IMG/VR virus record: IMGVR_UViG_3300044692_000046 | Location: 1 to 64,000 of that record | DNA from: a virus | DNA: 64,000 nt | Direction: 5' to 3' (one strand) | Part shown: piece after piece, positions 10,976 through 16,496 of the stretch | Position numbering within the stretch: position 1 is the first letter of the stretch | Layout: each line of letters begins with the position of its first letter | Notes under the pieces: generated by a model | Database searches by the model: none | What the model saw: only the letters and a program-made list of their open reading frames with translations | Told to the model about the DNA's origin: nothing | Program-made: the position numbers and the translations under genes

Positions 10976-11221
10976 ATGTCTGGCTTGGTCAATGGCTTCA
11001 GCAAGACCGACACGACCGTCAACGCCGCCCTGGAGTGGATCGAGGGCGATCTCCGGGAGGCGCTGGTGACGGCGGTGGGTCGCATCAACTCGGCGCTGGA
11101 GGCGCCGTCCAACGACAACGAGGTTCTGCACTCGCACGCGGCGGACATCCACAGCCTGATCTCCACCATCGACCGGAACAAGCGGCGCCGCGCCGAGATC
11201 GCCCGAGGCGAGGACTTCTAG
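10976..11221 (+). CDS. Hypothetical helical protein, 81 aa
   Basis: Function not recognised. Soluble and helical, with amphipathic segments (LEWIEGDLREALVTAVGRI) and a basic C-terminus (DRNKRRRAEIARGEDF). It is the first gene after the hairpin and precedes the DUF2637 gene by 58 bases. Confidence 0.6.
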   Translation: MSGLVNGFSKTDTTVNAALEWIEGDLREALVTAVGRINSALEAPSNDNEVLHSHAADIHSLISTIDRNKRRRAEIARGEDF

Positions 11222-11279: not shown

Positions 11280-12584
11280 GTGGACCTGCTACTCGACCCG
11301 ACCGCCCGGCGCTGGGCTGCGCTCATCGGCGCCTCCGCGGTGCTGCTCGTGGGCGTGTTCCTGCTGGTCTGGCTCGCGGGTTCCCGCTACGGCAAGCGCA
11401 AGGCCGCCGGCACCACCAAGGACGACACCAGCCGGGCTCGCACCAAGGACCGGCTGCTGTTCGCTGCGGCGCTCCTCGCGGGTCTGACCGTCTACGCCGG
11501 TTTCGCCGTCGGCTCCTACCAGGGTCTGACCGGGTTCGCCCGAGACTTCATCCACTGGTCGGACTGGCGGCAGAACATCGTGCCCGTCACCCTCGACGGC
11601 GGCACCGCCGCGTTCGGCTTCCTGGCGTTCCGGTCGGTCCAGCTGAAGAAGTCGGCGCTGCTGTGCTACATCGTGGTGCTCGGCTCGACCGGCGCGTCCG
11701 CGGTCTTCAACTTCACCGAAGGCGCCGAACATGCCTGGCAGGCCGGCGCGTTCCTCGCCTACCTGGCCTGGGCGGGCATGGCCATGGGCCATGTGTTCCT
11801 GGAGCAGTTCAAGAAGTTCGCCGGGCTCGGCCGGTACGTCAAGTACGGCGTCCGCTGGCTGACCTCCCCCCACTCGACGGCCTGCGCCGCGCTGGCGTGG
11901 GTGAACTACCCGCCCGAGGACGGCACCGAGGCGACCGTCCGGAACGGCCTGGCGCACCTCTCCGCGGTCCGTGCCCGCAAGCACTCCGAGGCTACGGGCC
12001 GGCGGGCCGCGCGTGCCATGACAGGTGGCATCACCCTGCGGCCGTGGGCGCGCCTCACCGCCGTTGCGGAGACCCTCGCGACGGTTACCGCCGAGCTCTC
12101 CGATAGCCGCGCGGAGAGGGCCTCCGAGAGCGCCCGGAGAGCCGAGGCGGAGACCCGCGTGGAGACCTTGGAGGCGAACCTCGCGGAGATGGCGGAGACC
12201 GTCCGAGCCCTCCGATCGGAGATGACCTCCGGAGACCCCTCCGGAGAGGGGGCGGAGAACCCTGCGGAGACCCCCCTCCGGCTGAGGCGGAGCACCAGCA
12301 AGAGGACCCTGGAGAGGCCCCTCCGAGCGGTGCCCTCCGGCGCCACGGTCTCCGACGAAGAGGCTGTTCAGCGGCTCCTCCGGGCGGAGGTCTCCGACGA
12401 CGACAAGCAGCCCGGCTACGCCTGGTCGAAGAACAAGGCGGTGCAGGTCTCCGGCGTGGGCTGGGGCCGCATCAACGACATCCTCCGGCTGCTCGCGGAG
12501 ACCCGCGCCAGCGGCCGGTCAGCGAACCCCTCCGGAGGGGACCGGAGCACCGGCTCCGACGACTCTGAGGAGCGTGCCGGATGA
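11280..12584 (+). CDS. DUF2637 membrane protein (Spd/transfer-associated), 434 aa
   Basis: Inner-membrane protein with about five transmembrane segments in the first 190 residues (for example residues 12-34, 59-82, 102-120, 126-145 and 153-172), matching the DUF2637 family. That family is common in actinomycete integrative elements and plasmids, where Spd proteins help intramycelial plasmid spreading. The cytoplasmic C-terminal half has a heptad helix (about 260-315) and a terminal HTH-like segment (GYAWSKNKAVQVSGVGWGRI) that could bind DNA. Its 3' coding DNA is packed with CGGAG/CTCCG pentamers. TraB lies 1.9 kb downstream. Confidence 0.8.
   Translation: MDLLLDPTARRWAALIGASAVLLVGVFLLVWLAGSRYGKRKAAGTTKDDTSRARTKDRLLFAAALLAGLTVYAGFAVGSYQGLTGFARDFIHWSDWRQNIVPVTLDGGTAAFGFLAFRSVQLKKSALLCYIVVLGSTGASAVFNFTEGAEHAWQAGAFLAYLAWAGMAMGHVFLEQFKKFAGLGRYVKYGVRWLTSPHSTACAALAWVNYPPEDGTEATVRNGLAHLSAVRARKHSEATGRRAARAMTGGITLRPWARLTAVAETLATVTAELSDSRAERASESARRAEAETRVETLEANLAEMAETVRALRSEMTSGDPSGEGAENPAETPLRLRRSTSKRTLERPLRAVPSGATVSDEEAVQRLLRAEVSDDDKQPGYAWSKNKAVQVSGVGWGRINDILRLLAETRASGRSANPSGGDRSTGSDDSEERAG
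12067..12558. repeat. Dense CGGAG/CTCCG pentamer array inside the DUF2637 gene
   Basis: By eye about 30 copies of CGGAG or its complement CTCCG fall in roughly 490 bp, where only two or three would be expected for this base composition. Copies fall in all three codon phases (gCG GAG, TCC GGA G, CGG AGC), so the pattern is at DNA level rather than a peptide repeat. Clustered short repeats are the binding sites of TraB translocases in Streptomyces plasmids. A clt-like role is possible but unproven. Confidence 0.55.
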
Positions 12585-12844
12585 GCCCCCGGAAGAACCG
12601 CCAGACCGACCGGCAGCGCGCGCACGAGGAGCGTGCCACCGCGTTCTGGGCGGCGAAGCTCAACGCCGCTCGAACGCCTGATGATCGCGCCCGAGTGATC
12701 TTCGATGAGACGCGCGCCCGGATCGACAACCACCGGGTGGCCGAGGTTCGTGACCGGGCGTGGCTGGCACTGGAGAAGCACGCCTGCGCCGGGCGTGAGC
12801 TTGTGACGCGGATCCTCACCGAGAGGCTCGGTGACACCGCGTGA
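12581..12844 (+). CDS. Small basic helical protein, 87 aa
   Basis: Function not recognised. Coupled to the upstream gene (ATGA overlap). Arg-rich N-terminus (MSPRKNRQTDRQRAHEERA) and an amphipathic helix (VRDRAWLALEKHACAGRELV). It lies directly before the iteron-like region at 12847 and might bind it, but nothing shows this. Confidence 0.6.
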   Translation: MSPRKNRQTDRQRAHEERATAFWAAKLNAARTPDDRARVIFDETRARIDNHRVAEVRDRAWLALEKHACAGRELVTRILTERLGDTA

Positions 12845-13436: not shown

Positions 13437-14411
13437 ATGCCGATCCTGTTGATCGCGGTGCTCGTCGCCGGTGCGTGGTGGACGAAGAACACGCTGGAAG
13501 AGGTGCCGTTCGCGATGCGCGGCAAGACCTCCCCGCGGCGCCAGCTCAAGATGGAGCGCTTCAAGGCCAAGGCCGGCAACTCGGAGCGCCGCTACGGCTT
13601 CGCCCGCTACGTCGCCGACCTGTGGGCGTCGTGCTGGAAGGAGGCACTCCAGGCGCGGATGAACACCACCGACCACCGGGTGAACGCCCGCACCCAGAAG
13701 GCCATCCGCAAGCACGAGCGCCGCATCGACCGCCGGGACCGCAGGTGGGCCCGTCGTGACGATCGGCGCCAGCAGCGTCAGGTCCGCCGCGCCGAACGTC
13801 GGCTACCGCCCCCGGCCCCCGAGGAGCCTCGCGAGCCGTGCGCCGGGTGCGGCAAGTCGGGTCACGACCTGCCCTACTGCGAGAAGCCCGCCGACTCCAC
13901 CCCAGCCGACAGCGGGCCCGACGAGATGTCCGACCGCAAGTGCGGCTGGTGTGGAGGACCCGCCCACTCGTCCGCCGACTGCCCCGTCTACACGGGCAAG
14001 TCCGAACCGCAACCGAAGGAGAACACCGTGTCCGCATCCCCCGAGACCAGCACCGTCAGCAGCCTGCGGGCCGCCATGGAGGCGAAGGTGACCGAGGCGA
14101 CCGCCGAGCTGGAGGACGCCCGCGCCAACGCGAACCGCGCCGCCGGGGAGCTGGCCCGCGCCGACCAGATGGTGGCGAGCCTGCGTTCCCAGAAGGTGCC
14201 GGAGCAGACCGTCGCGCGCGTCCAGCAGCTGCAGGAGAACGCCGCCGCCGCGAAGAAGACCGCCGACGCGCGGGCCGCGCTCGCCGACTCGGACGTGGCG
14301 CTCGCGAAGGCCGCGCTGGCCGACGTGGCCGCGCACGAGCACGTCCAGGACGCCAGCACTGCGGCCGGCGGTGTCGCCAATGCGAGCTTCTACGAGCAGA
14401 GCAACAGCTGA
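13437..14411 (+). CDS. Membrane-anchored protein with two CCHC zinc knuckles and coiled coil, 324 aa
   Basis: Domain order: short hydrophobic N-terminus (residues 2-15), long very basic helix (about 75-122), two CCHC zinc knuckles and a C-terminal Ala-rich coiled coil (about 205-300). Both knuckles have exact C-x2-C-x4-H-x4-C spacing: Cys135, Cys138, His143, Cys148 and Cys169, Cys172, His177, Cys182. CCHC knuckles usually bind single-stranded nucleic acid. An internal in-frame GTG at 14028 has its own AAGGAG six bases upstream and could make a 127-residue coiled-coil-only product. It directly precedes traB; function unknown. Confidence 0.75.
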   Translation: MPILLIAVLVAGAWWTKNTLEEVPFAMRGKTSPRRQLKMERFKAKAGNSERRYGFARYVADLWASCWKEALQARMNTTDHRVNARTQKAIRKHERRIDRRDRRWARRDDRRQQRQVRRAERRLPPPAPEEPREPCAGCGKSGHDLPYCEKPADSTPADSGPDEMSDRKCGWCGGPAHSSADCPVYTGKSEPQPKENTVSASPETSTVSSLRAAMEAKVTEATAELEDARANANRAAGELARADQMVASLRSQKVPEQTVARVQQLQENAAAAKKTADARAALADSDVALAKAALADVAAHEHVQDASTAAGGVANASFYEQSNS

Positions 14412-14471: not shown

Positions 14472-16496
14472 GTGAGCCGCACCGCAACGCCAGCCCCACC
14501 GAGGCTCCCGTTCGGTGGCGGGCGACGCGTCAACAAGGCCGTGGACCGTATGGTCCGCGACAACCCGAACCTGCTGCGACAGGTCCGGTTGACCCGAGGC
14601 CAGCGATTCCGCCGCTGGCTCGGGCGCAGCGCATGGAAGGCTACCCACAAGTCCGCCCGGCACGGCTGGAAGAAGCGTCGCACCCTGGCCCCGTCGTACG
14701 TGGGGTTCGCGGTGATCCTGCTCGGCGAACTCGCCCACGTGTTGCCCACCGGCTGGCTGACCGCCGCGTGGCTGGGCTTGCCCGCCGCCGCGATTTGCTG
14801 GTGGTGGGTGGGTGGCACGGCATGGAAGCTCACCCGCAAGAAGCGGGCCCGCAAGACCCACCGCGGCTGGTGGCTTGCCGGGATCGGCGTGGCGTGGGCG
14901 CTGTTTCTGCTGGTGGCGCTGCTCAGCTGGGCGCCGCCGATGCCGTTCCCGGTCATCGTGGCAACCACCACGTTCCAGGTGCGGTGGCTGTGGCACCGCC
15001 GAGTCCGGCCGACCGCGGCGAAGAAGAACGACCCAGACGTGGCCACCTGGAAGGCGATCGACGGGTTCGCGAAGACCAGCATCGAGTTCACCGACCTACC
15101 GGCCGACCGCGGCCGGTCCGCGCTGGCCGACCTGTCCGACTCCAACCTCACCGCCGACGACGTGGTGGCGAAGCTCAAGGCGATCACGAAGGCGTACCGC
15201 AAGACGGCCGGCGCGGTGGTCGTGGAGCGCACCCCCGAGGAGTACGAGCACCTGGTCAAAGTCATGATCCTCAAGCGCAACCCCACGCAGGAGATCACCG
15301 AGTACGACGAGTCGTGGGTGCAGTTGGAGGACGGCTGCACGCCGTTCAGCACCTACCCGGACGCGGCGCGAGCGTGGCTGCGCATCTGGGAGCCCCGCTC
15401 GGGCTGCGTGCACGAGCTGTTCTCCGGCGACCCGCGCACCGGTAAGTCCCGGGGCATGGTCACCGCGATGACCCAGTCGGTGATGACCGGCCTGGTGTTC
15501 CCGATCGTCGGCGACCCGCAGCAGGGCCAGTCGATGCCCGGCTGGGCCGGCGCCGACGGCAAGGCGCCTATCACCGCCCTGGACGTCGAGTCGATCCACG
15601 ACGTGCTGCGCGCCCTGCGCACCGCCATGTACCGCCGGTCGAACTACTTGTCGAAGCGGCTGTGGACCGACGAGGACAACGACACGCACCGCGGCATGGA
15701 CTTCTTCGACCCGACCGTCGTCCCGGAACTGCCGATCCTGGAGATGACGATCGACGAGGCGCACCGGCTGCTGGAGTTCGACCACATCGCCGACCTGGTG
15801 GAGGAGATCGCGCTGATGGCCGGCAAGACCGGCATCCGGCTGCGGCTGGCCACCCAGTACCCGTCGATGGACAACCTCGGCAACCGGATGACGATCCGCA
15901 ACTCGCTGATCGGTGGGAACACGATCGCGTACCGCATCTCCACGGCCGTCGCGCAGGGCATGATCCTGCCGGCGTGGCTTCCGGGCCCGCACACCATCCC
16001 AAAGCGTCTCCCGTCCGGTGAGCACACGAAGGGGATGCTGGTGCTGGACTCGTCGGCGCCGAACTCGTCGCGGGGGACGTTCTCGCGCACGGTGTGGACG
16101 CGGCGGGAGCACCACTGGGCGGGGATCGCTGCGAAGCGCATCCCGAAGCTGCACGATCTGGATATGGAGGTGTTCGGCTCGGACTTCTCCGCCTGGCGGC
16201 AGAAGACACAGCTGGCGGTGGCGGCCCAGCCGTCGCAGACCGGCAGCGAGAACGGCGTGCAGGACCCGTCGGCGCCACTGGACGACCGGATTGCCGCCTA
16301 CCTGGCCACCGTGGACACCGGACGGACCGGCGTCATCGCCGACCACGTCGGTAAGGACATGGCGACCGTGAGCAAGACCCTCGCTCGAATGGAAGGCAAG
16401 CGGCGGGTCGACCTGATCGAGCGGGGTGTCTGGGCGCTCGTTCGTAGCGAATCCGATGAGCAGAACCACGCGACCGAGACAGCAGGTGCCGCATGA
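14472..16496 (+). CDS. traB: TraB/FtsK-SpoIIIE-like DNA translocase, 674 aa
   Basis: Probable conjugal translocase that pumps double-stranded DNA between mycelial cells; elements of this type need no relaxase. A basic N-terminus is followed by about four membrane segments (roughly 74-118 and 132-170), a linker, then a RecA-like motor with Walker A GDPRTGKS at 319-326 and Walker B-like ILEMTIDEA at 422-430. A C-terminal winged helix (about 603-657, TGVIADHVGKDMATVSKTLA) is in the place where TraB and FtsK read short DNA repeats. The stop overlaps the next ATG. A partitioning or phage FtsK-like role is an alternative. Confidence 0.87.
   Translation: MSRTATPAPPRLPFGGGRRVNKAVDRMVRDNPNLLRQVRLTRGQRFRRWLGRSAWKATHKSARHGWKKRRTLAPSYVGFAVILLGELAHVLPTGWLTAAWLGLPAAAICWWWVGGTAWKLTRKKRARKTHRGWWLAGIGVAWALFLLVALLSWAPPMPFPVIVATTTFQVRWLWHRRVRPTAAKKNDPDVATWKAIDGFAKTSIEFTDLPADRGRSALADLSDSNLTADDVVAKLKAITKAYRKTAGAVVVERTPEEYEHLVKVMILKRNPTQEITEYDESWVQLEDGCTPFSTYPDAARAWLRIWEPRSGCVHELFSGDPRTGKSRGMVTAMTQSVMTGLVFPIVGDPQQGQSMPGWAGADGKAPITALDVESIHDVLRALRTAMYRRSNYLSKRLWTDEDNDTHRGMDFFDPTVVPELPILEMTIDEAHRLLEFDHIADLVEEIALMAGKTGIRLRLATQYPSMDNLGNRMTIRNSLIGGNTIAYRISTAVAQGMILPAWLPGPHTIPKRLPSGEHTKGMLVLDSSAPNSSRGTFSRTVWTRREHHWAGIAAKRIPKLHDLDMEVFGSDFSAWRQKTQLAVAAQPSQTGSENGVQDPSAPLDDRIAAYLATVDTGRTGVIADHVGKDMATVSKTLARMEGKRRVDLIERGVWALVRSESDEQNHATETAGAA

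Follow-up and report, generated by a model that had tools for sequence, protein, structure and literature searches.

What reads a short DNA word that is written again and again into the coding sequence of a membrane protein? The question is raised by a 64,000-nt stretch (hereafter the window), the first part of a 95,148-bp viral contig, in which copies of CGGAG and its complement CTCCG crowd into the 3' half of one gene of a transfer cassette. It is understood only in part how the DNA of an actinomycete element is selected for transfer by TraB. The original prediction was that this array may be a recognition locus for the TraB protein encoded nearby.

CGGAG repeats in a phage-borne transfer cassette

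The array contains exactly 31 copies of CGGAG/CTCCG, 16 on the plus and 15 on the minus strand, and uses all three codon phases (3/10/3 for plus copies, 5/0/10 for minus copies), which bears out the first estimate of about 30 copies in both orientations and all phases. Positions 11960 and 11984, slightly ahead of the 12067-12558 interval, hold two extra copies. The window as a whole has no excess of the word (282 copies seen versus 310 expected), the window mean predicts 2.2 copies per 500 bp for the array region, and a scan of window 5-mers returned CGGAG as the top clustered one. A longer, non-palindromic core, CGGAGACC, occurs nine times in the array, seven times elsewhere in the window and once in the other 31 kb of the record.

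The shuffled-codon controls proposed with the original prediction were each run 5,000 times. Permuting codon order, with loss of the protein, gave a mean of 6.3 copies (maximum 15), taking synonymous codons from adjoining genes gave 8.7 (maximum 19) and shuffling the array region's own synonymous codons gave 15.4 (maximum 24). As the 31 observed copies beat every synonymous control, codon choice in the region is bent towards CGGAG; as the mean obtained with neighbouring codons already exceeds background, the amino acids are partly bent in this direction too. The array is a genuine DNA-level feature. Two other classes of repeat were considered for it and set aside: KOPS-like orientation guidance (FtsK-orienting sequences) is ruled out because the repeats have no strand polarity, and in the case of origin iterons, the cassette has no identified replication gene and the array sits in the membrane protein gene in relatives as well.

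Table 1. Features of the cassette in the window, and arrays in related elements.
Feature	Position or element	Strand	Basis
CGGAG/CTCCG array, 31 copies, core CGGAGACC x9	12067..12558	both orientations	counts, synonymous controls, spacing pooled with relatives
DUF2637-type membrane protein gene hosting the array, 434 aa, GTG start	11280..12584	+	profile matches, hydrophobic helices
C-terminal HTH-like segment VSDEEAVQRLL...YAWSKN...VGWGRINDILRLLAET, candidate array reader	12348..12509	+	homology to L047/L016 C-terminus
TraB-like FtsK/SpoIIIE-type translocase	14472..16496	+	phrog_1358 E 1.6e-6; aligns with annotated transfer proteins
TraB C-terminal winged-helix-like segment (TGVIADHVGKDMATVSKTLARM...GVWAL)	16281..16439	+	alignment
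Small ORF upstream in cassette	10976..11221	+	
Small ORF overlapping the array gene's end, same operon	12581..12844	+	
Small membrane protein ORF; position in gene order conserved in plasmid relatives	12984..13430	+	
324-aa ORF, ahead of traB in gene order as in relatives	13437..14411	+	
CCGATCG array	L002 (Micromonospora plasmid)		
GCGGACAAC array	L003, L008		
CGCGAG array	L005, L009, L061		
GCGGAAC array	L013		
CGGACCG array	L037		
CGTGAAC array	L042		
CCGCACG array	L063		
TGAGAC array	L064, L069		
CCGAAGC array	L066		
TGAGCC array	L133		
TACGG array	L141		

The product of the host gene matches PF10935 (DUF2637) at 15.9 bits (E 5e-4), under the curated cut-off of 22.8, and is matched at E 5e-23 by a profile iterated from the DUF2637 domains of relatives, a profile that may include the window protein itself. 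As had been proposed, the host gene is of the DUF2637/Spd type and belongs to a transfer cassette with TraB, and its distance of 1.9 kb from the traB start was also as claimed. The predicted structure has hydrophobic helices followed by a coiled coil at residues 255-317, at low confidence (pLDDT 47-58 for models of the whole protein and of its C-terminus, 57 for the latter). The C-terminus had no Pfam match; it resembles, around a DEEAVQ motif, the C-terminus encoded at the Actinoplanes locus L047/L016 (z 11.6). The HTH-like segment pointed out earlier proved relevant, as the repeat word tracks the C-terminal domain in relatives. Its fold was not confirmed by the model.

Terminase, portal, tape-measure, endolysin and integrase genes are found on the viral record, as are RecT, YqaJ and DnaB genes. 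The order of the cassette (membrane protein, small ORFs, 300-aa ORF, traB) recurs in actinomycete plasmids, and Streptomyces phage-plasmids (L133, L135, L137, L140, L143, L144, L145) resemble the window in having terminase/capsid genes that adjoin a complete TraB/DUF2637-type cassette. Because phage genes accompany a plasmid-like transfer gene order that also occurs in phage-plasmids, the window represents a phage carrying a conjugation-type cassette; the phage is probably temperate. Its TraB-like protein had no Pfam match, and a tRNA-Pro call by ARAGORN inside traB (15944-16032, minus strand) is probably a false positive. A single-protein pattern search of viral and genome contigs found no near relatives of either the window TraB or the array protein. 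The array protein and the L047 C-terminus had no match among plasmids, and the window TraB had none among annotated phages.

Arrays of other words in related genes

Clustered short words were sought de novo, with CGGAG not presupposed, in related plasmids, phages and integrated elements that carry traB. In many of them, an array of some other short repeat occupies the corresponding position: it falls in the linker-coding stretch of a DUF2637-type gene, between the parts that encode the N-terminal transmembrane domain and the C-terminal HTH-like domain (Table 1). For many of these arrays, z exceeds 7 against whole-gene synonymous shuffles. Related elements keep their arrays despite divergence of the encoded protein, the pattern that had been named as a check on a DNA-level role. 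Arrays with z >= 4 were present in 11/29 TraB-linked and 3/59 unlinked DUF2637-type genes (Fisher p 0.0002), in a profile-selected set whose members are phylogenetically non-independent and in which array-bearing genes missed by the profile are uncounted; 18 of the 29 TraB-linked genes have no array at this threshold.

Could such words arise by chance from a low-complexity coiled-coil linker, through protein-level repeats or codon bias? In L004, L131/SCP2, L091 and L104, the top word is indeed largely confined to a single phase and orientation and coincides with repeats in the amino-acid sequence, and the arrays of L004, L012, L131/SCP2, L136 and L138 are weak or explained by such repeats. However, the arrays of the window, L002, L003, L037, L063, L133 and L141 lie above all synonymous shuffles and use three to six phase-orientation classes, and the L013 array runs on beyond the stop codon into non-coding DNA. 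For the window array, an origin in codon bias or protein repeats therefore has very little probability.

Array position also bears on autoregulation, in which the protein bound to the array would repress its own gene, or the array would act as a titration sponge for the level of the protein, and the DNA address would play no part in transfer. A site within its own gene, an HTH-like C-terminus and the near absence of arrays from unlinked DUF2637 genes would fit this reading. Nevertheless, the arrays are found 0.5-1.5 kb inside the gene, with some extending past its end (L013, L067, L106), and not at promoters, and a membrane-anchored regulator with ~30 sites would be unusual, so we regard autoregulation as improbable.

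Some loci showed further peculiarities. At L152:13243-13724, a GGGCACC array spans the 3' end of a membrane protein gene and the DNA downstream, and the encoded C-terminus contains the HTH-like GVSRRTVNRHL, which makes this locus another candidate of this type. The C-terminus encoded at L070:4084-5073 seems, by eye, to contain a tandem pair of one HTH-like domain, and a single element, L061:5998-10328, has two adjoining traB-like genes (G513).

The repeat word tracks the C-terminal domain of the host gene

Short repeats clustered in or close to tra genes are a hallmark of Streptomyces clt loci, and the short distance from array to traB, together with the enrichment of arrays in TraB-linked genes, would likewise suit the original proposal of a clt/TRS-type locus with the winged helix at the TraB C-terminus as its reader. 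A comparison of words with TraB proteins argues against it. The TraB proteins of L066, L068, L069 and L070 are close relatives of one another (normalised similarity 0.61-0.76); the words at these loci are CCGAAGC, CGTGAG, TGAGAC and CGGACA, respectively. The recognition helices of the TraB winged helix are near-identical in L068 (VTRKTVENTLSRL) and L070 (VARKTVENTLSRL), yet their words differ, and the same was found for the plasmid pairs L133/L143 and L137/L145, in which the S. anulatus plasmid L143 carries CGAAGC and pSLE1 (L145) carries TGAGCC. Conversely, loci with unrelated TraB have words in common: TGAGAC in L064/L069, CGTGA- in L042/L068, CGGACA in L003 and L008/L070, and GATGCG in L134/L140. 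In most of these word-sharing cases the C-termini of the DUF2637 proteins are demonstrably related.

A pair test covered 31 loci with automatically chosen motifs and was restricted to pairs that separate the TraB from the C-terminus hypothesis. Where TraB was unrelated but the C-termini were related, the two words of a pair were more alike than in other pairs (permutation p 0.0004 for z > 4 and 0.002 for z > 5, thresholds that were picked after the weak outcome of a first test was known). In contrast, pairs with related TraB and unrelated C-termini had words no more alike than others (p 0.42 and 0.51; 0/64 versus 2/347 pairs alike). The first test, a whole-set Mantel test on 27 hand-picked motifs, was weak for each protein part (r 0.07-0.09, p ~0.1), with the C-terminus no better than TraB.

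In a forward test, words were predicted automatically for six more plasmids, five of which have arrays. Prediction from the nearest C-terminus was correct in 5/5 and from the nearest TraB in 0/5, in a sample where several plasmids are close homologues of known or training genes and so probe gene linkage more than recognition. L149 likewise combines a C-terminus of the L035/L036 type (GAELDRRFGTKNYG) with their word, CGAGAC. An exception is formed by L005/L009 and L063, in which related C-termini go with different words. Overall, the repeat word tracks the C-terminal domain of its host gene, not TraB. The predicted recognition by TraB was not supported, as the word does not co-vary with the TraB winged helix, and we now consider a TraB-read locus quite unlikely.

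L047 alone has a C-terminus related to that of the window protein. The words of the window and L047/L016 (CGGAGA and CGGTGA) are similar but not identical (similarity 0.25), and their TraB proteins are only remotely related (0.06). As this is a single supporting pair, the case for the window depends mostly on the pattern seen across the relatives.

Because the array lies inside the gene, a gene swap by itself would carry word and C-terminus along together. Site turnover and parallels between helix and word suggest more than such linkage, and site spacing may point the same way. The array-coding parts of L064 and L069 are 33% identical, with 6/13 sites aligned and the word kept; sites at aligned positions number 4/16 in L035/L036, nine in L066/L137 (of 44 and 27) and two in L003/L070 (of 30 and 16). 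One HTH family shows parallel changes in the word and in the helix presumed to recognize it (SRATAGRRL with TGAGAC, SPATAGRRL with TGAGCC, QTTA(F/Y)DRL with CGAAGC). Site spacings pooled from 26 loci have a period of 10.5-11 bp, the strongest of the periods from 5 to 20 bp, which is partly confounded by alpha-helical codon periodicity; it persists once multiples of three are removed from the spacings (p 0.0025-0.005) and is not clear among all opposite-strand pairs combined (p 0.25). C-termini of one family had weak matches to many HTH families, and a profile of one C-terminal family had no significant match among solved structures.

A possible DNA address at the membrane

Together, these comparisons suggest a model, to which we give a probability of about 0.6, in which the array is an element-specific set of sites in the linker-coding part of its own gene that is read by the HTH-like domain at the C-terminus of the encoded protein. 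The N-terminal helices would hold the protein in the membrane, with the DNA-binding C-terminal end borne on a long linker that is either a coiled coil or disordered. With many copies on similar helix faces, many protein molecules could gather on one stretch of DNA, and binding would both tie the element's own DNA to the membrane and mark it there. DNA tethered in this way may be passed to TraB, guided through cross-walls in spreading or retained at inheritance. We infer binding, tethering and any such role from sequence comparison; the most likely purpose would be to bring the DNA to the TraB translocase or hold it there, for transfer or for spreading within the mycelium, or else to secure stable inheritance.

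A purpose in inheritance and not in transfer would make the array a partition or centromere-like site, with the same protein as reader and the tethered array stabilizing the element. It has a precedent in SpdA2 of pIJ101, which binds the sps palindrome in its own coding region and affects segregational stability but not transfer; sps could be removed by synonymous changes, with an effect on that stability (PMC4170104). Plasmids or phage-plasmids are also many among the relatives. Against it, the arrays accompany traB-linked genes, and several carriers (for example L012 and L132) have a separate ParA/ParB pair elsewhere. We see a pure partition site as a serious but rather unlikely alternative.

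The model of a membrane protein that reads sites in its own gene combines features of two known proteins, with an address that varies per element. From SpdA2 comes the site in its own gene: like the window gene, it is a case from a spread or stability region with a site inside the gene, which in the window the encoded protein would bind. Unlike the window protein, SpdA2 is small and has no DUF2637 membrane domain. Moreover, sps is a 12-bp palindrome (CGTCACGTGACG) in one to three copies that is conserved between plasmids, whereas the window and its relatives have ~10-35 copies of short, mostly non-palindromic, element-specific words. From SpdB2 of pSVH1 come membrane, double-stranded DNA and TraB: this spread protein is described as an oligomer and an integral part of the membrane, able to bind dsDNA and to interact with TraB (Tiffert et al. 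2007, in the summary given by PMC4170104). We liken the window protein to it on the strength of this description, in which DNA binding is reported as non-specific and no array in its own gene appears. PMC4170104 also gives the molecular function of most spd genes as unknown.

Repeat clusters read by transfer proteins are likewise known. According to PMC3583192, TraB of pSVH1 and TraA of pWTY27 bind their own repeat clusters, and the clt/TRS loci of pIJ101, pJV1, pSVH1 and pWTY27 are plasmid-specific clusters of short repeats close to or partly in transfer genes, as the window array is. These loci are read by TraB or TraA, whereas the words of the window and its relatives do not follow TraB; also unlike them, the window array lies wholly within another gene and has no net polarity. 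For pSAM2, the archetypal integrated element, no clt motif had been described (PMC9513070). A 'putative multidomain membrane protein' of plasmid SCP2, SCP2.27c (AL645771), matches the window protein in its position upstream of transfer genes, in its HTH-like C-terminus and in a repeated word in its gene (GCCGAAG x9), which unlike the window array has a single orientation and lies within the range of synonymous shuffles. In the open literature on clt, spdB2 and Streptomyces conjugation, as far as its text was accessible and with subscription papers outside the search, there was no description of arrays inside DUF2637-type genes, and DUF2637 appeared in an unrelated context only. Sites in their own gene (sps) and repeat-cluster transfer loci (clt) are already known, and what appears new is an element-specific array in a DUF2637-type gene.

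On balance, we slightly favour a more general view, in which transfer elements of actinobacteria, be they plasmids, integrated elements or phages, would in many cases carry a self-addressing module. It would consist of a membrane protein with a C-terminal DNA-binding domain and of the multiple sites for this domain, encoded on top of each other in a single piece of DNA, exchanged between elements as a cassette and with a word of its own in each element. If so, the module would be an overlooked specificity determinant of TraB-type transfer or spreading, separate from TraB. Many plasmids and phage-plasmids would then bear a readable address word alongside a named protein expected to bind it, so that specificity could be tested directly. 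The array would represent a dense DNA-level message that is written over coding sequence and co-evolves with a domain encoded a few hundred bases away.

Other repeat clusters were seen in the related elements. At L130:5862-6310, AGCCTGTGA is repeated 56 times in 449 bp, in one orientation and outside called ORFs. Nine copies of CGCACACTC, in both orientations and with no well-scoring ORF, lie at L016:845-1070 (L047:849-1072 on the same contig), ~2.4 kb upstream of the DUF2637-type gene, and could be iterons or a partition site. Clusters resembling CCGGTGACA, in both orientations, occur in two unrelated elements (L002:2075-2211 and L057:816-1060), the former within an annotated gene (1690-2763), and the clusters L068:3915-4129 and L149:17799-17968 have GCTACC in common. 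In the plasmid table, a Streptomyces plasmid (L142:15144-15419) is further credited with a predicted LEN-4 beta-lactamase at 100% identity, which looks doubtful.
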